NCBI RefSeq assembly: GCF_009727055.1
Contig: NC_052350.1
Span: forward strand, 1,961,340 to 2,025,339
Length of the DNA: 64,000 nt
Direction: 5' to 3'
Source of the DNA: Benincasa hispida
Taxonomy: Eukaryota; Streptophyta; Magnoliopsida; Cucurbitales; Cucurbitaceae
Every line of letters starts with the position of its first letter. Position 1 is the stretch's first letter. The notes beneath the pieces are model-generated. The model ran no database searches, was not told the DNA's origin, and saw nothing but the letters and a program-made list of their open reading frames with translations. A program made the translations under genes and the position numbers. Below are positions 1 to 44,140 of this stretch, in pieces.

Positions 1-1756
1 ATGAGCAGCGGAAAGATCATTCCAAATTACAATCATATATGAACTTTACAATTACAGTCATAAACATAAACACACGGTTATATATTCATTATAGAAATTA
101 TAGCATGATACTACAAATGATCAAGGAGAAATGCTACACACATTTGTAGACTCATCGCCAAGCTCCTTGATCACAAATGCTCGAACACTCGTCCAACACG
201 ACCCCTATACTGCACGAACACTGTGCACTCGAACTCAGCGATCGCCTCGGTCACGAATACCTCAACAGCACGAACAACCTCCACAGAACCACGACGGTTT
301 CGAGTTGAGTATGACACCACCAAGAAGGCTACCTTGGTATTCTCGGTGTGAGAATCCAGAGGGTGGGCTTTGTGTGGACTTGGTTTGAGGCAGAAGACGG
401 AGGAAACAACAATCGTGTAAACGATTGAGCAAGTGGGAGATGGCAGAACCTATCGTATAAGTCAATGCCCAATCATTTAGGAAAAGCTAAGCGATCGTCT
501 AGCAAAAGCTATGCGATCACTTAGCTAAGTGCCTATCGCCTACAAACACTACACGATTGTTTACCTTGATCCAAGTTGTCACTTAGTAAATCCTATTTAC
601 TTGACAACTTCCATGAAATTCTGAGAGAGAAAAATCTCAAATTCACAAAAACTCTTTTTTACAAAAACTTACTAAAATTAGGAAAACAAGTTTCCTATTA
701 TCTCACGGTTACCATGAAACCACCAATAACCTCCCACTCAATTGGTTATTAGAGAAAAAGATTTAATTATCCAATAATTAATATTATTATAAATATAAAT
801 GATAACCAACTTATCATACTATATTTATAACCTATAGTTTTAATATTTCATCTCATAAAACATATAAACCATAGCTCTTTTTCTATTCCATGGTACTTAA
901 TGAAAATATCATTTACATTAATCCTCCACTAGATATATCTCATACACCATACTGATCATATCATATATAATCAAATTACCTCTTGTCAATTTGAACATTT
1001 CAAATCAACACCAAGAACTGATCCTTAATTTAATCCATTGTACTACCAATGGGACCTTATGGACCTGTAGCTCGAAGCTCCAACGATACGTGAATAACTG
1101 ACTAAACTCTTTAGTCACGAGATCCACCATCCGTTAACTACCAAGCATTCCACTAAAGAGCAATAGTTGAACTCTCCTTATCACAGATATATTATATGTC
1201 CATCTTAATCAATCAATAATACAACAACCCTTCACAGATCGTTCGTAAGTACAGCTCGGCCAATAACCGTTATACCTCTGCAGTTACGTCTAACTCCTTA
1301 AGTACCACTGGTCCCTCTAATGAACATAAGTCATAATCCTACTATGACTATTAGGACTGAGTTCTCTTTTCCAAAGAGAAGTTGTGGCCACTATGTTCAA
1401 GCCCTGAAAGCAGCTCTTAAGGGAGCAATCTTTCTACTTATCCCTGCTTCGGAAAAGGAGTGAATTCCATCTTGTGTATGTGAGTTCCCAACTCCCAGAT
1501 CAGACAAGTCCCCAAAAAGGTAGGCATTTTAGCTGGCAATCTGGTCACTCCCACCCATACTAATCACAAGATCGCACTCAAAGGCAAGAGTTCCCAACAC
1601 ACTCAGGATTGAGGTCGTGTCACCTATGGTCGTTTAGGTGAGATGTAAGTCTCTAGTATCAATGGCGTTATATACAGAGTCTAGTCATCTCGTGGTCCAG
1701 TCTTATACAAACTCTTTGTATAGGACACCTCTGCTCGCACGTCTTCACATGAATGG
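1..1756 (-). mobile_element. LTR-retrotransposon LTR fragment, reverse orientation
   Basis: Read on the minus strand, this stretch matches the LTR-like repeats at 38358-39655 and 39656-41059. Shared landmarks include the block around 1070-1262, which is the reverse complement of sequence near 38400-38580. The window opens about 30 bp from the expected 3' end of the LTR, and the fragment stops at about 1756 in the middle of the LTR, so it is truncated. The part at 480-560 carries several GATCG-type motifs also seen in the other copies. Short open frames here have no coding character. Confidence 0.75.
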
Positions 1757-4044: not shown

Positions 4045-6056
4045 ATGTTTTAAGCACTTAATTTACGTTATTTTTAGTATGGTTGGTGTTTTTCATGAGT
4101 TGCATGAAATGGTTGCTAAAATGGATATATTGTAGTTTTTGCATCATAATTTCTGTTTAATTTGCATGTAATTGTTGTAATTGGCTCTTTGTTTATGGAC
4201 CTTAATGTGTGATTAAGAGTCTGTAAATTTATTAGAGTCAAGAAAGTTGCAATTAGGTTGTAATTGAAAGAAATCCAGGACAAGCTCAGCAACAGAAGTT
4301 CAAAATTGAAGCCTCTGTGAGACAGCGTTGCAACGCTACCCTCATAATGTTGCAACGCTGTTCTTCAGCTAGCCCAGAAATAAAGAACAAAACTCGTGGC
4401 GTTGCAACACTGGGATGAGGCGTTGCGACATTGTTCATTCTAGCCCAATTCGCGCACACGCGCCATTCATCCAGCGGTTCAACTAAACTGGTTTGACCGG
4501 TTCAGGCCTTGGTGGTCTGGTTCAGCTTGATTATAATTGGTTCAACTTTTTTTGAAGCCATGGAAGTCCGATTCAGGCAATTTGGGTCTGGTTCGGTTCA
4601 GTTCAAGTGGTCCAGAGGCTTTGGGAAGCTGTTTTTTATTTATTAATGTAATAATTAGTTTGTTTGCGTGTTTAGTATGCCTAAACCAGTCCATTTCAAT
4701 GTATGTTTAATTATTTATGCATTATGAATGTATGTTCAATTAAATTAAATCTTGTATATGCATAAAGTATGCCATGTAGACTTAAAATCTCACCATAGGA
4801 AGCATGTATCATGCATTGAAAGTATGTTCTAAAATGTTATAATATATAGTATGCATGCTTAGGGTTTCATGTGTTTAATATAATTGTTATATTGAAATGA
4901 AAAATTCTTGATGTATGTTATAGTATGTCTATAGTTTTATAAAGTGTTATAAAATGGATTAGGCATTTAAAATTTATAACAAAGATAAAAAGCATGCTCA
5001 CTTAGGGTTAACAAATAACAACTTATTTTAATAGTTAAAATAGGTCGTTATCTTGTAAAACTTTGGTTACAAACTCAATCGATCTATAATCCTGTCTAAG
5101 GCTGGAGGTACTTAAGTTGACGGTTTACGAAACACTTGTTACCTGGGGATTATAGTCAAATTATTGAGTGTTGATAACTCGATTTTATGAGCATGCATGA
5201 GCGATGTGAGGTAATAAAATAGTTTTATCACTTAAAATATCATAGATTAAAATCCAAATATAATCGTTATACTTGGATAAACCATCTAGACATAGGTTTT
5301 TTTTTTTTAGCCGGAATATACTTAAGTAAGAACATACCCAAACAATTAGAACACTTCAATGGGAAACTAATAGCATATATGATATATTATTTTTAGCTCT
5401 CACGTTCCTAAGAGTTCATACCATGAGATCCATGCTCGACTTCGTGTCGCTTTTACCACGACTATTCCATTCAGAAAGTGTTTGCATGGGTCAATAACAA
5501 GGTGAATAGAGGAAGTAGTTCATGGTAAGTGGGAGAAGGAAATGTGTCAACATATCCTACGGTCTCTTCCATTAGTTTAAACGACGATATTCTTATGTTA
5601 CGCCTGCAGTCATTCTTAGGCGACATTAGCTAGTTATTTCCTACGGCTATCCCCTTAGAGGGTTATAACATAGGATTCGGTACAAATCAAACTTCATATA
5701 TGAATAAAGTTTTCTTAGTTCTGTCTTCATCATTGTCTTCCACTTCGAGGGCCTGTTGATACCCTTCTATGATATCTGAAAATGGAGGGTCAAAATTACA
5801 AGGGTTACTAAGTGTTAGTAAGTTCTTGACCGAAAACGGTAACTAAATAACTAATTGTAAAGAGTTATTCTATAATTAGTGTTTAGTCAAGAATGTCTTG
5901 CTTTAGTAAATGAGTATTTGACTGCCCCTCGGTAGCATCTATTCTGACTCATTAAAGTATCGTTGCAAATAAATAAAAAAATCTGAGTGCTTTATTATTT
6001 TTGCTAAAAATTGGATTTAGATGCAATTTTCTGATAGAATTTGTTTATGTTTTGGC
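4045..6056 (+). other. Untranslated leader of Copia element B
   Basis: About 2 kb lies between the primer binding site and gag with no credible coding frame. It includes GTTGCAACGCT-type repeats (4320-4440), imperfect CCGGTTCA repeats (4480-4620) and blocks shared with the leaders of elements C (14231-16226) and E (41939-44380). Confidence 0.75.
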
Positions 6057-31295: not shown

Positions 31296-31426
31296 GGAAA
31301 ATTTCACAGAATCATCAGAAACTCCCAAACTTTTCAAACAATGATCTCTTTCCTAAAAACTTTAGGAATACTTTAAGCGAGCATTTAGACATTACTAAGT
31401 TATCCAAAATAGATAGAAAATACTAA

Positions 31427-31925
31427 GCGATTGTTTAGATATTTATTATATGATCGTTTGGTTAACTATTATGCGATCATTTAGTTTTTGTTCTATGATC
31501 GTTGAGATATCTATTATGCGATTGTTTAAATATTTGTTATGCGATCGTTTAGGTTTTGTTAAACGATCATTTAGATTTTGTTATGCTATCATTTAGAGAA
31601 TACTAAATGATTTTAGCTAACTGTTTCGCGATCGTTTAGATATCTATTGCGATCGTATGGCTAACTATTACGCGATCGTTTATTTTTTGTTATACGATTG
31701 TTGAGATATCTATTATGCGATCGTATAGTTTTTGTTAAACGATCGTTTAGGTTTTGTTATGCAATCATTTAGAGAATACTAAGCGATCGTTTAGTTAACT
31801 GTTACGCAATCGTTTAGTTTTTGTTAAACGATCGTTTAAGTTTTGTTATATGATCGTTTAGTTTTTGTTAAACAATCGTTTAGGTTTTGTTATGCGATCG
31901 TTTAGATTTTGTATGCGATCATTTA
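31427..31925 (+). repeat. Left CGATCG array, 22-bp period
   Basis: About twenty units of the type GTTAAACGATCGTTTAGGTTTT, varying to GCGATCATTTAG or CAATCG. Core positions 31807, 31829, 31851, 31873, 31895 and 31916 show a regular 22-bp step. The core CGATCG is a palindrome. Confidence 0.9.
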
Positions 31926-32210
31926 GATAAATTTGTGCTAAATTTGTAGAATACAATTGGTGTTGTACATTTAACTAAGCGATTGTTTAGATAAATTTGT
32001 GCTAAAATTACATATTGTACGATATAATTGATGTTGTACAAACTATAATTGGCGCTAAAATTATATATTGTACAGTATAATTGGTGTTAAAATTACATAT
32101 TGTATAGTATAAATTTGTACAGTATAATCGATGCTAAAATTACATATTGTATAGTATAATTGGTGTTGTACAGAAAAAATTACATATTGTTTAGTCTAAA
32201 TGGGCCAGTG
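31926..32210 (+). repeat. Minisatellite with about 32-bp unit
   Basis: Six or so imperfect units of the form TATAATTGGTGCTAAAATTA then CATATTGTACAG follow the left CGATCG array directly. Units vary in length and some are fused or truncated. Confidence 0.8.
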
Positions 32211-32494
32211 CCAAGTTTATCAACGTTCTACATGTTTTCTCGTTATGTCCTCTCTAACCACATCGTGTACACTTGTGTATTTGTCGTGGCTCCTCTCTAA
32301 TTGAAGGTATCCTGACGATTTGACGTCAACCTACACTTACTACTTTTTGCGATGGTAGAATTGATTCAAAATCTCCAACATCTCCAACCCATTCTTGACT
32401 GTGTCCGATTGGGAAGTTTGGTTCGGCGTTGCTATTAACAACATCTCCAACCCATCCATCGACCTACACCTATGTTGTTATATCTATCGATACA

Positions 32495-33640
32495 CATTAC
32501 TATTAACAACATACCTTTGTATTTCTCACGCAAATGGGTCCTATCAACAATGATTACTGGGCGGATGCAGTTTAGAAAACCCTGATAAACGGACCAAGTG
32601 CCATGAAGACGTACTTAAAGTATTGTCCATCCTCTACTTTAACCTCAAATATGGTACCTAAATTTTCAAGCTTAAGTGCCTCGTTGTATGCCCTAACAAT
32701 AACATATGATCCTTCTGGCGACCCTCATGCATACACCAATCCGTACTCTCTAGCGCGATAAGCCCGTCCGTAAGTAATTTCACTCCATATTCTTGTCGGA
32801 CGTCCTCAATTATAGGACCCAACTCTCTAGCATACACCAATCGGTTCAGCCAACTTGTTCGTATTTGGACTTTATTAGGTGTTCAATAACCCAACTTTTT
32901 GCTTGTCGATGATTACCAGTTCTCATTTCAAGAGAACATGTATGTTTGTTGGGATATTTTGTCACTTTGAAAGAATCACTTTCTTTCATTTTTTTACACG
33001 GACTCTCCACTTGCATTCCTCCACCAAACACCAGACAATTAGCAAGCTCTTCGTTGACTTTTTTACACAATAGTCAAAGTTCTTTCTTATTGCAGGCATC
33101 GATAATTTAGCTAATAAGTCATATTTCGAAAAGAAAATTTGACCGACCTTTATATCCTCGTCATTCAAACAGTCATGAGGTATTGTGACGAGATTGTCAT
33201 ATAATGGACCCTCTGATGGTCCGGGTATATCAACAAATGGTTCGGTTGGAACGGTGGAATACATTATAACCGAAGGCATCACAATCGGTGGAACGGGAGC
33301 AAGTGGGGTTGGAACATGGATTTTAGGTGTTGGAGAAGTTTATAGACCTGAAGATTGTCCATATGCATATTCAGTATTGAATTGTAAAGTACATCTGGGT
33401 TCACTGTTCCGACCAAACCAAGCTTTACTTCGGTCATCTCTCAAGTTACATGGCTCAATATGATCATCAAGTGAAGACATGGTATGAATTGGATTGGGTT
33501 GATAGGTTGGATTACAATGCTGATATACTCCATGACCGTCACAAGATATAACTGATATAAATAATGACATCTGGGATGCCTCATTGCCTTCTAAAAAGAA
33601 GTTAAGATCTTCATTGTCAACTATGTCAATTGGAAGAGCC
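32495..33640 (-). pseudogene. MuDR/MULE transposase remnant
   Basis: On the minus strand, frames from 33282 read VGQIFFSKYDLLAKLSMPAI, then NFDYCVKKSTKSLLIVWCLV and ECKWRVRVKK. In another frame (33070-32846) it continues FKVTKYPNKHTCSLEM and HRQAKSWVIEHLIKSKYEQ. This is the C2HC-like DNA-binding domain at the N-terminus of plant Mutator transposases. Sequence to about 32500 matches the region leading to the MULE catalytic domain, with frameshifts. The DDE core and C-terminal SWIM zinc finger are not present, so no active enzyme is expected. Confidence 0.78.
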
Positions 33641-33877
33641 TAAACCAACAGATTATAGCAACATTTGATGTGTATATCAAACATATCTGGATCGATATTC
33701 AGTCATTGGTGCATCATGCTCACTAATTCACTGATTATTATATCATTTCTGACTTTCAGACATTTCACATGACCACCAACATAATTTCTTCCGGACTCAT
33801 CCCAATCCCCAATAAATCGTACAAAGATGCGAAGTAGCGTCATTGATCTACAATTATATAAACAACTCATTGATAAG

Positions 33878-34390
33878 TGAACGATCGTGTATAAATTACT
33901 ATGCGATCGTGTATAAATTACTACACAATAGTGTATAAATTACTACACGATTGTGTAGTAAATGATTGCATAGTAATGTTTAAATGATCGCATAGTAATG
34001 TATAAACAATCGTATTGTATAAATTAGTACGCAATCGTTTATAAATCACTATACAATCGTGTATAAATTACTACACGATCGTTTATAATTTACTATACGA
34101 TCGTGTATAATTTACTACACGATCGTTTATAATTTACTATACGATCGTATTGTAATTTATGAACGATTGTGTAGAAATTTATACACGATCGCATAATAAA
34201 CGATTGCATTGTGATGTATTGACGATTGTGTATATATTACTAAATGATTGTTTATAATTTACTAAACGATCGTGTATAAATTACTACACGATCGTTTATA
34301 ATTTACTATATATGATCGTGTATAATTTACTACACGATCGTTTATAATTTACTATACGATCGTATAGTAAATTATAAACGATTGTGTAGT
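33878..34390 (+). repeat. Right CGATCG array, 22-bp period
   Basis: About twenty units such as ATAATTTACTACACGATCGT. Core positions 34032, 34054, 34076, 34098, 34120 and 34142 are exactly 22 bp apart. Spacers alternate between ...TACTACACGATCGTTT and ...TACTATACGATCGTGT. Spacers differ from those of the left array although the core and period are shared. Confidence 0.92.
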
Positions 34391-34883
34391 AATTTAATGC
34401 TAAACGACACTTATTATGAAAGCAATATGGGAGAAGAAATCGTACATTGAATGAAAGGCTGAAGAAATCGTTGAAGGAAGAAGAAATGTGGACTAAATCC
34501 GATGATGAAAGCTACGAGAGAATCCAAAGATGTTGGGCTGAAACTCTGAGAGTAAGCTATGAGAGAAGTTCGCGCGAAGTTCGACGACAGAAAGTGAATA
34601 ATGAGAGTGACGTTCCATTCTTTTCAGAATATTAGTTGGAAATAAATATTTTGGTGGAATGTTGGTGGTATATTAAATGCACATTGAATGAATGGTTGAA
34701 GAAATCGTAGAAAAAAAGAAGAAATGTGGTGCGATCTGAAGGCTTTTTAAAAATTGAGGCTTTTTAAAAATTGAGGGTAATTTTGAAATTTCGCATGGGA
34801 AAAGGTCGGTGGTAGAAAAGTTTTTAGGAAGAGATCATTGGTAGAAAAGTTTTTGAGTTTTGGGTCATTTTATGAAATTTTCC
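34391..34883. repeat. Right subterminal region of the MULE with direct repeat
   Basis: Two copies of a roughly 47-bp segment (34444-34490 and 34681-34728; CATTGAATGAA... AAGAAATGTGG) lie between the array and the terminal inverted repeat. The frame at 34447-34635 covers one copy and has no recognisable domain. Confidence 0.65.
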
Positions 34884-38204: not shown

Positions 38205-38355
38205 CAGTGGCGATCGTCGAGGTGGCAACTGAAGTTCGTTGTGGCGGTTGTAGGAGGTTGCGGCCGGAGTTGGTCGGTGGCGGTCGCCAGAGTTAGCAGG
38301 CAGCATTTGCCAAAGGTGGTTGCCGGAGTTAGCCCTTGGCGGTCGCTGGAAAGAC
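38205..38355 (+). repeat. Short GC-rich imperfect tandem repeat
   Basis: Several imperfect copies of GGTGGCGGTCGCCGGAGTT-like sequence make this a GC-rich island in AT-rich DNA. It may be a remnant of a coding or UTR repeat. The frame 38241-38498 crosses from it into LTR sequence and is not considered a gene. Confidence 0.6.
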
Positions 38356-38357
38356 TT

Positions 38358-39655
38358 AGATGTAACTATAGGGGCAAAACAATAAATTGGCCCATCTATA
38401 CTTACGATCGATCTGTGAAGGGTTATCGCACTATTGATTGGTTGATATGGACACAGAAATATATCTATAGTGAGGAGAGTGCAACTGTCAGTCTTTAGTG
38501 GAGTGCCCGACAGTTAACGGATAGTGGATCCCGTGACTAAAGAGTTTAGTCAGTTATTCACGTACCATTGGAGCTTCAAGCTACAGGTCCATAAGGTCCC
38601 CTTGGTAGCTCAAAGGATTCAAGTTAAGAACCAGTTCTTTGAGTTAGTTTGAAGTGTTCAAATTAACATGAAGAAATTTAATTATATATGATACAATTTG
38701 TGTGATGTATGAGATACATCAAGTGGAGGATTATAATTTACATTAAGTACCATAAAATAGAAAAAAGAACTATGGTTTGTATGTTTCATAAGATGAAATA
38801 TTAAAACTATAGATTATAAATATAATATGGTAAGTTGGTTATCATATTTATTTATAATAATATTAATTATTTGATAATTATCTTTTTTTTCTCTAATAAC
38901 CAATTGAGTGGGAGGTTATTTGTGGTTTTATGGTAACTGTGAGATAAAAGGAAAACCGTTTTCCTAAAATAAGAAGTTACTTCATTTGGAAATTCACTCA
39001 CGGACAAGGCTATTAAGTGAAAATGTTTCACTAAGTGATAGCTCATAGAGATTAAACGATCGTGGAGATTGACTATATAATAGTTCATTCAGCTGATCGT
39101 AGCTAAACGATCGTGTGGCTTTGTCTATACAATAGGCTTCCATTTACTACACGATCGAGCACATTGTCTATACGATAGACTGTGTCATCTCCCACTTGCT
39201 CGATCATCTACACGATTGTTGTCCTCTAGTCTCTTCCTCAAGCCAAGTTCATACAGAGCTTACAACTCCTGAATTCTCACACCGAGAATACCAAGGTAAC
39301 CATTGTGGTGGTGTCCTCACTCAATTCGATTGGTTTCGAGGATTTACGAAGGTCGTTCATGATCATTGTGTTCGTTGTGTTCGTGCTGGTGATCGTGTTG
39401 CACCGATCATTGCATTCGAGAGCTGTGTTGCTGTGGACACTTATAGATTGATTGAGGGAGTTTAAAGAATGTTTCTTCAAAGGTATGCATACTCTATCCC
39501 TTGATATTCTTTGTAAGCATGTTATAATTCCATGTTATGCATTACCTGTTTGTTTCCATTTATTGACTGTAATTGTTGGTGTTCAATTTTGAATGAAATT
39601 TGGAACGATCCTTCTGCTGCACATGAAAATCCTCATGTATGATTTCCTTCACCCT
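38358..39655 (+). repeat. LTR fragment D1, forward
   Basis: It begins within an LTR (GATGTAACTATAGGGGCAAAA) and runs to the LTR's 3' end near GATTTCCTTCA. It is nearly identical to 39775-41059 and matches 1-1756 inverted. The part 39058-39215 has several GATCG motifs spaced about 20-60 bp, including TTTACTACACGATCG at 39143-39157. Confidence 0.8.
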
Positions 39656-41059
39656 TAACGACTGATTCCGAGTCTTGAACATAGTTGCCACATCCTCTCT
39701 TTGAAAGAGAGAACCTAGTCGTAGTAGGACTATGACTTATTGTTCATTAGAGGAATCAGTAGTACTTAAGGAGTTAGATGTAACTACAGAGGCAAAATGG
39801 TAAATTCACCCAGCTATACTTACAAGCGATCTGTGAAGGGTTATCGCACTATTGATTGGTTGATATGGACACAGAAATATATCTATAGTGAGAAGAGTGC
39901 AACTGTCGGTCTTTAGTGGAGTGCCTGATAGTTAATGGATGGTGGATCCCGTGACTAAAGAGCTTAGTCAGTTATTCACGAACCATTGAAGCTTCAAGCT
40001 ACAAGTCTATAAGGTCCCCTTGGTAGCTCAATGGATTTAAGTTGATAATCAGTTCTTAGAGTTAGTTTGAAGTGTTTAAATTATCATGAGAAAATTCAAT
40101 TATATATAATACAATTGGTGTGATGTATGAGATACATCAAGTGGAGGATTAATGTAAATATGATTTACATTAAATACCATAAAATAGAAAAAGAACTATG
40201 GTTTGTATGTTTCATGAGATGAAATATTAAAACTATAGGTTATAAATATAATATGGTAAGTTGGTTATCATATTTATTTATAATATATTAATTATATGAT
40301 AATTAATTTCTTTTTCTCTAATAACCAATTGAGTGGGACATTATTGGTGATTTTATGGTAACCGTGAGATAAAAGAAAAAATGTTTTCCTAAAATTAAGA
40401 GTTACTTGATTCGGAAATAACTCATGGATAAGCTATCAACTGAAAGTGTTTCACTAAGCGATAAACTTACAGAGACTAAACGATCATGGAGCTTTAACTA
40501 AGCTGATCATAGCTAGACGATCGTGTGGCAAGACTATACGATAGGCTTTCATTTACTAAACAATCGAGCACTTTGCCTATACGATAGACAACATCTTATC
40601 TCCCACTTGCTCGATCGTCTACACGATCGTTGTCCTCCAGTCTCTTCCTCAAGTCAAGATCATACAGAGCCCACAACTCCTGGATTCTCACACCGAGAAT
40701 ACCAAGGTAACCATCATGGTGGTGTCCTCACTCACTTCATGAATTGAGTATGACTCAATTGGGTTCGTGATCATCGTGTTTGTTGTGTTCGTGTTACTGC
40801 TCATGTTGTACTGGTCGTTGCATTCGAGTGTTGTTCTTGGACGCATGGAATTTGATCAAGGGATGAATGTGAAGAATATTTCTTAAAAGTTATGCATACT
40901 TTATCCCTTGATATTCTTATTAGCATGCTGTAATTTCGTGTTGTGCATGACCTGCTAGTTTCCGTTCTTGTACTATAATTGTTTATGTTCAATTCGAATG
41001 GAATTTGGAACGATCTCTTCCACTGCTCATGGAAATCCTTGTGTTTGATTTCCTTCAAT
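39656..41059 (+). repeat. LTR fragment D2, forward, in tandem with D1
   Basis: It starts a little earlier in the LTR than D1 (sequence CTGATTCCGAGTCTTGAACA) and ends at the same 3' point. The offset between D1 and D2 is about 1.4 kb. Two directly adjacent LTR parts without internal sequence suggest recombination between LTRs, not two independent insertions. Confidence 0.8.
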
Positions 41060-41938: not shown

Positions 41939-42483
41939 TCTGAAAATATAAACAAGTTCTTTGTTAGGGAATTTCTTTTAAACCAAATCATGTTTTAGCA
42001 AAGTAATAATGTACCCAAATTTCATTATTTTTGCAACGATACTATAGTGAGTCATGATAAGTGCTACCGAAGGGCAGTCAAATACTCATTCACTAAAGCA
42101 AGACATTCTTGACTAAATACTATCTTCAGAATAACTCATATTCTGTTAGTCATTTAGCTATCGTTTTCAGTTAAGAACTTACTAACACTTTGTAATTTCG
42201 TAAGTGTAACCCTCCATTTCCAGACTTCAGATGTCAACCCCAACGATGCTACCGAATTGGAGAGTCAAGATTGGGAATGAACCTAAGAAATCCTATCCAT
42301 TTCTAGAGTTTGAGTTATTCTGAATCCTATGTTACAACCCTCTGAAGGGATACCCATCGTTAAACGACTAGCAAGGGCCGCCTAAAGCTAACTAGCGGGC
42401 GCAACATAGGAATATCATGGTCCAAACCAACGAGAGAGACCACAGGATGGTATTGACACATATCCTTCACCCACTTACTATAA

Positions 42484-42970
42484 ACTACTTTCCCCATTCA
42501 CCTTGATCTTTACCCATACAAACACTTTCCGAATGGAGATCAATCCTAGGGTGAGACGAACTGTCGTATGAATCTCACGGTGTGAACTTTCTAGGGATGT
42601 GAGAGTTGAAATCAATATATCGTATATTTGATTTTACATTGAACAACTTCCCCTCATTCACCTTGATATTGACTCATGCAAACACTTTCCGAGTAGATGT
42701 CACTCCCAAGGTGACACGAAGTGTCGCATGAATCTCATGGTGTGAACCTCTTAGGACATGAAAATCAAAAATCAAAATCAAAACATCACTTTTGATTTTA
42801 CTGCGAACAACTTTCCCTATTCACCATAATCTCGATTTATGTAAATACTTTTTGAATGAAGGTCACTCCCAAGATGACACGAAGCGAAACATGAATCTCG
42901 ATTATGAACTCTTAGGGACGCGAGCGCTAAAAACAACATATTGTATATGTTATTAATCTCTCACTGAAGC
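42484..42970 (-). repeat. Three tandem ~160-bp repeats in leader E
   Basis: Units start near 42484, 42649 and 42811 with TTTCCC.ATTCACC..., contain CACTCCCAAGGTGACACGAA-like sequence and end near TATATGTTATTA or equivalents. Leader C has a single copy at about 14755-14940, so the repeats arose in E or its lineage. Confidence 0.8.
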
Positions 42971-43870: not shown

Positions 43871-44140
43871 ATCAAGTACCATCGAGCATCAAGTACCATC
43901 GAGATGCCATCAAGTATGCCATCGAGCATCAAGTATGACATCGTGCATTGAGTATGCCATCAGCATAAGCATCAAGTGTGCCATCGAGCATTGAGTATGG
44001 CATCGTGCATCGAGTATGCCATCAAGCATGAGCATTAAGTATACCATCGTGCATCGAGTATGGCATCATGCATCGAGTATTTACCTAAATACCATCGGGT
44101 AAATGCCATCAAGTATGGCATCGTGCATCAAGTATTTGCC
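43871..44140 (-). repeat. 19-bp minisatellite in leader E
   Basis: Around twelve units of GCATCGAGTATGCCATCGA and variants, mostly 19 bp with some 18- and 25-bp forms. Leaders B and C lack it. Confidence 0.85.

Follow-up and report, generated by a model that had tools for sequence, protein, structure and literature searches.

Arrays of a 16-bp palindrome in a Mutator-like element and in LTR retrotransposons of the wax gourd, Benincasa hispida

The VANDAL elements of Arabidopsis are related to Mutator-like elements (MULEs) and have anti-silencing proteins, the VANC proteins, which carry the DUF1985 domain (PMC5735166, PMC10398659). VANC21 binds the motif YAGTATTAY in tandem repeats, and VANC6 is also active on AT9TSD1, an element unrelated to VANDAL (PMC5735166). 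High-copy palindromes with a CG core are present in Sirevirus LTRs upstream of the promoter region; according to the cited sections, they have a CGG-CCG core, with the exception of the A/T-rich Tnd-1 box ACAATCGATTGT (PMC2829016). A maize palindrome, CACCGGACNNNGTCCGGTG, is common to the Copia and Helitron superfamilies; the cited part of that work treats it as an RNA secondary structure and does not describe a regular tandem spacing (PMC10760457). Muta1 and other mosquito MULEs, as well as Tm1 from root-knot nematodes, have short motifs that recur close to both ends, and target duplications of 8-9 bp (PMC5225508, PMC3169594). As far as these sources go, subterminal repeats of MULEs, palindrome boxes of LTRs and target motifs of VANC proteins are each known separately, and palindrome boxes (LTRs) and motif arrays (VANDALs) have hitherto been described within single lineages.

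We analysed a window of 64,000 nucleotides from B. hispida (assembly GCF_009727055.1, contig NC_052350.1, positions 1,961,340 to 2,025,339), which contains a MULE with two arrays of the palindrome CTANRCGATCGYNTAG (Table 1). These arrays differ from each of the systems above. The VANC21 motif is no palindrome of the wax gourd type, the wax gourd MULE has terminal inverted repeats (TIRs) and showed no DUF1985 gene among the scanned frames (part of all frames), and the wax gourd array is also found in LTR retrotransposons. Its core is CGATCG, and it occurs at a step of 21-23 bp in gypsy-type elements and a MULE too, whereas the Sirevirus boxes were described for one copia lineage. In the LTR arrays described here, many palindromes stand ahead of the primer-binding site. 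The maize palindrome is another motif. The repeats of Muta1 and Tm1 (9-15 bp) lie within the TIRs, whereas the wax gourd arrays are internal to the TIRs and common to the MULE and retrotransposons. Unlike in a foldback-type MULE of the Muta1 or Tm1 kind, the tandem repeats are no part of the TIR here: the arrays start internal to the 127-bp TIR, and the left and right spacers differ. Neither the motif nor a single operator common to MULE, copia and gypsy elements was found described in the open-licence literature.

Table 1. Positions of the element, its arrays and other palindrome sites within the window (position 1 is its first letter)
Feature	Position	Strand	Basis or remark
Mutator-like element, internally deleted copy	31296..34883	-	TIRs, MuDR DNA-binding domain, many relatives
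Left TIR, recognisable part	31296..31363	+	68 bp, 78% complementary to 34816-34883
Right TIR	34757..34883	-	About 127 bp in common with ends of relatives
Transposase remnant, several frame breaks	32200..33870	-	DBD_Tnp_Mut match; gap compared with relatives
Possible transposase start codon	33868..33870	-	Frame 33703-33939; array site at 33877, 6 bases off
Left array, 3' side of transposase	31423..31990	.	22 sites scoring 9 bits or more; TRF and site scan
Right array, 5' side of transposase	33877..34389	.	23 sites scoring 9 bits or more; TRF and site scan
Three palindrome sites (487, 509, 549), LTR-type repeat	487..564	.	Site scan; similar to array LTRs L026, L028
Single palindrome site	234	.	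Site scan
Palindrome sites in LTR-type repeat	39052..39223	.	Site scan; LTR-like repeat 38350-39651
Palindrome sites in neighbouring LTR-type repeat	40476..40634	.	Site scan; LTR-like repeat 39768-41057

The element is a MULE with an internal deletion. It had been predicted to be a Mutator-like element bounded by terminal repeats, and the TIRs and the MuDR DNA-binding domain confirm this assignment. Relatives have TIRs of about 127 bp; of the left TIR of the window copy, 68 bp can be recognised. Profile searches identified the DBD_Tnp_Mut domain (PF03108, the MuDR DNA-binding domain) within 32986-33339 on the minus strand (E=4e-8), and a MULE domain with no better than E=0.21 within 32435-32614. 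Near 32430-32471, the window copy is short of approximately 0.8 kb of transposase sequence that relatives keep, and its transposase span is 1671 bp versus up to 2488 bp in relatives. Five of eight scanned frames of relatives contained the MULE and Transposase_mut domains and one contained SWIM; no second gene was detected in the scanned parts of the MULE. Target site duplications, about 9 bp long in MuDR-type elements, were sought at 8-10 bp in 12 MULE copies, using scores that are somewhat inflated as the best over many shifts and lengths. By these scores, duplications were good in L007 (10/10), L013 (8/8) and L018 (9/10), good yet A-rich in L004 and L017, had one mismatch in L002, L003 and L020, and were poor in L006, L011 and L012 as well as in the window copy (6/8).

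The two arrays of about 0.5 kb on either side of the transposase remnant, as originally predicted, were recovered by TRF (rows 31424-31929 and 33881-34396), and the site scan revealed one further site of at least 9 bits at 31373, outside the left array. The self-match at lag 22 was 0.48 in the left array and 0.69 in the right array, compared to maxima of 0.42 and 0.39, respectively, over lags 10-50 in 200 first-order Markov chains per array. The element contains 46 sites scoring 9 bits or more versus 16 elsewhere in the window, and ten whole-window Markov controls gave 1 to 5 sites, with a site model whose training set included window units. Successive cores with at most one mismatch in the window copy and 500 bp on each side were separated by 22 bp (22 times), 23 bp (7 times) or 21 bp (twice), so that the step is mostly 22 bp rather than constant as the original prediction had it. 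The run at 34032-34142 comprises six cores and five steps, not six steps, and the run at 31807-31895 five cores and four steps, not five steps. The CGATCG core proposed for both runs is kept in part, several cores being CAATCG (34032, 34054, 31807 and 31873) or TGATCG (31851). A step of 15 bp also recurs, with 38 instances in arrays of the MULE set; in the window it is found at 33943-33958 and 34181-34196, where the spacer orientation appears to flip.

The DNA helix has 10.5 bp per turn. The mean step was 22.18 bp in MULE copies (computed from steps of 20-24 bp), 21.88 bp in the LTR set and 21.6 bp elsewhere, and a step of 22.18 bp corresponds to a drift of approximately 40 degrees per unit. 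Therefore, the cores do not all lie on one side of the helix, as had been suggested, and strict 22-bp phasing on one DNA face was rejected from these three means.

The conserved unit turned out to be longer than the predicted hexamer CGATCG. It is CTANRCGATCGYNTAG, a 16-mer with two-fold symmetry; most copies follow one another at 21-23 bp, and conservation is weak in the intervening spacer of about 6 bp. The same symmetric unit was obtained from separately tabulated sets, namely the MULE left arrays (595 units, 33 loci), the MULE right arrays (584 units, 36 loci), the LTR set (130 units, 13 loci) and the mixed rest (115 units, 6 loci). Spacers of the LTR set carry little information, and those of the left and right MULE arrays differ in the unit tables, in agreement with the earlier observation on the window copy. 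With the tested set left out of training, site models detected 1453 (MULE), 101 (LTR) and 117 (other) sites versus 24, 7 and 0 in one shuffle per set. A single array in the LTR set is gypsy-type, and the other set includes gypsy-type and DUF1985-linked arrays. The commonest step in these held-out scans was 22 bp in all three sets. Among sites defined by their flanks alone, CpG transitions accounted for 400 of 497 one-mismatch cores in MULEs, 13 of 15 in the LTR set and 25 of 27 in the rest. Such transitions would be produced by the decay of methylated CpG.

These unit tables bear on the reading of the array as a neutral minisatellite, a functionless 22-bp repeat captured by or spread between transposons. 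Site numbers range widely (5 to 49 per side among MULE copies with both arrays), TRF also reports higher-order periodicity at 44 and 89 bp in the window arrays, and spacers are slightly more alike between sets than in shuffles (for example 5.5 versus 4.93 of 6 from LTR to MULE), leaving room for common descent. Nevertheless, conservation is symmetric about the core with the spacers free, the CpG-rich core is the best kept part despite visible decay by CpG transitions, and the presumed promoter-side position recurs, which makes a neutral repeat unlikely. Insertion of unrelated satellites, the alternative named in the original prediction, is likewise a poor fit, since the palindrome and step are constant and the spacers change.

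The arrays are kept across the MULE family, mostly at 22 bp. Every one of the 20 copies chosen by overall DNA similarity contains one or more array clusters. Clusters of four or more core sites are likewise present in 10/10 copies fetched by transposase DNA and in 10/10 fetched by TIR; nine of the ten transposase-selected and all ten TIR-selected loci had been chosen as absent from the overall-similarity list. Since all 20 copies fetched by transposase or TIR have a cluster, the arrays are not a by-product of picking by array similarity. Only a single cluster was found in four of these 20 (L035, L039, L045 and L047). Both TIRs were recognised in 25 of 41 sequences, the remaining 16 being left out of the side-by-side site count, and in 22 of the 25 transposase DNA is flanked on either side by four or more core sites. 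L048 has one site on one side of the transposase and 27 on the other, and L041 and L046 have no detectable transposase DNA yet keep 19 and 22 sites. In the window MULE, the right array reaches within 6 bases of the possible transposase start codon.

The original prediction proposed that the arrays are binding sites of the MULE transposase. Their presence near both ends of nearly all two-ended copies, their retention in copies without transposase and the end repeats known in other MULEs, in the cited accounts (PMC5225508, PMC3169594), are consistent with this proposal. However, the same arrays are present in copia- and gypsy-type LTRs, which are not moved by a DNA transposase. A MULE transposase does not account for the retrotransposon arrays, and we consider this role very unlikely.

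The occurrence in retrotransposons emerged from a genome scan (912,946,352 bases in 1791 contigs, the window being on contig C2). The exact 16-mer CTANRCGATCGYNTAG was found at 31,906 places in the 913-Mb genome versus one for the reversed pattern, site pairs numbered 23,671 versus none in the control, and three exact cores at 21-23 bp were found at 4,921 places versus four for the reversed pattern. Core triples at 26-28 bp and 31-33 bp numbered 35 and 214, respectively. The counts 4921/35/214 hint at whole helical turns, with copies within one family not being independent and many of the listed 31-33-bp places representing, by eye, a different 33-bp repeat. In this separate 33-bp family, which bears no relation to the flanks of the palindrome, CGATCG is followed by a TCCAAGAAGATCAACAAGCCCAAAGGC-like unit. 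Genome-wide, sites are also frequently 28-29, 34-35 or 41 bp apart, and overlapping sites 12 bp apart (CGATCGTCTAAACGATCG) are found at C1:376653-376692 and similar places, which suggests other arrangements of the palindrome in further repeats.

On contig C1, the first ten loci that have core triples at 21-23 bp are one MULE (L023), eight members of a copia-type LTR family and one gypsy-type LTR (L029), and an array specific to MULEs was accordingly rejected. This occurrence outside MULEs is of the kind that the original prediction had named as counter-evidence. The copia label of the main LTR family is based on LTR similarity, on copia domains in the vicinity of some copies and on a single junction in L029; at that junction an RNase H end and a purine tract, both recognised by eye, are followed by the LTR start. 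L029 contains two separate LTRs, and the array counted there lies in a gypsy-type one. A primer-binding site of the TGGTATCAGAG type follows the array after approximately 480 bp in L024, approximately 400 bp in L028, 126 bp in L029 and approximately 140 bp in L054. Beyond this site, L029 has a reading frame that encodes a Retrotrans_gag domain (E=2e-12). L026 resembles a solo LTR within another copia gene. Eight additional loci (L051-L058) were hand-chosen and not consecutive; L051, L052 and L055 were labelled gypsy-type by eye only, and L056 is unclassified. In L051 and at the end of L055, the array has flanks in which near-palindromes of the ACTTGACACG...CGTGTCAAGT type are repeated.

The window itself has palindrome sites in LTR-type repeats outside the MULE (Table 1). 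Two further stretches related to the array LTRs (approximately 16.8-18.0 and 45.0-46.2 kb) contain no exact core, though their aligned part may miss the array region. TRF also detected tandem repeats of 160 bp at 42483-42899 and of 62 bp at 43908-44080, near a copia-type gag frame.

Palindrome arrays might act as RNA, with their transcripts forming hairpins that feed or decoy small-RNA silencing. Predicted RNA folding is far above that of shuffles (z -20.5 for the right array and -8.75 for the left), and small RNAs are drawn to palindrome clusters of maize Sireviruses in the account cited (PMC10760457). But such folding is expected of any palindrome array, and the conservation peak covers a short core and the flanking TA rather than the length of a stem, so that this role seems highly improbable.

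We suggest instead that each array may be a row of operators for one dimeric sequence-specific DNA-binding protein, a reading that we regard as on balance probable. The operator array would best be read as a promoter-side regulatory or anti-silencing site of several unrelated transposon classes. In the MULE it borders the transposase frame; in the four LTR loci it is located 126 to approximately 480 bp ahead of the primer-binding site. The two-fold symmetry of the palindrome would suit a homodimer, and in rows at 21-23 bp neighbouring sites could be occupied together and cooperate. From the promoter side, the bound protein would act as an activator or anti-silencer, allowing the element to be transcribed. 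Because unrelated transposons have the same site, the protein is expected to act in trans, and one trans-acting protein serving all of them could account for their keeping the same operator.

Two candidates were considered for this protein. Somewhat more than half of our confidence in an operator row goes to a DUF1985 (VANC-like) protein, with the remainder falling to a host transcription factor. The former would be encoded by an array-bearing element and is, by analogy, the most likely identity of the binder, given the precedent of VANC6 on the unrelated AT9TSD1 and a link between DUF1985 and the array in this genome.

This link was found at L053 and L059 (C1:8216300-8221400), which have 35 and 45 core sites over approximately 2.1 kb. 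A DUF1985 frame (E=5e-23, C1:8220497) lies approximately 1.8 kb from the array end. The array at these loci has a mixed 21/22/26-bp step with higher-order units. A pattern derived from it gave 501 genome matches versus 0 in the control, and 150 DUF1985 matches were scored among 1345 candidates in this genome. The 100 listed places of the 501 fall into 41 clusters, with 25 DUF1985 matches in the same stretch. Three of these 25 lie 2226, 2347 and 2363 bp from an array cluster, on the same side and the same strand (the last two known by position only), which was reached in 0 of 20,000 random placements. With the discovery locus removed, two of 24 matches were linked, a result equalled in 27 of 20,000 placements. 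The three cases are probably copies of one element and hardly independent, and the other 22 of the 25 matches in the analysed stretch are not paired with a cluster. The array is carried by a DUF1985 element, whose protein is a candidate for binding it.

For 38 of the 41 clusters, there was no scored DUF1985 match within 5 kb (150 of the 1345 candidates being scored), and this distance of most clusters from any scored DUF1985 gene is in line with the palindrome being an ordinary host transcription factor site, from which enhancer arrays were built independently, as proposed for LTR repeat boxes. The arrays are located ahead of the transposase frame and the primer-binding site, as would be expected for such enhancers, and, within the cited sections, Sirevirus LTRs offer a parallel in their palindromic repeat boxes ahead of the promoter (PMC2829016). 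For a plain promoter, however, the second array past the transposase in 22 of the 25 two-ended MULE copies would be superfluous, and no host factor with such a motif was found in the open-licence literature. We regard independent enhancers of this type as possible, though well short of probable. Returning to the DUF1985 (VANC-like) protein, it could function as an anti-silencer that has become a common good, the MULE and the copia- and gypsy-type elements having acquired its operator and thereby escaping silencing; we put this forward tentatively, as a rather unlikely scenario when taken on its own.

The wax gourd genome has approximately 20 times the copia length of cucumber, as given in the cited part of PMC6856369, and an array abundant in transposons fits this setting. 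If the operator reading is correct, one 16-bp operator, commonly with the same spacing, is present tens of thousands of times in a DNA transposon and in both main LTR superfamilies. The sharing or parasitising of one activation or anti-silencing factor by unrelated transposons thus becomes directly testable, and the array could be used as bait to isolate that factor. Should the anti-silencer indeed be a common good, it could have helped to drive the transposon expansion of this genome.
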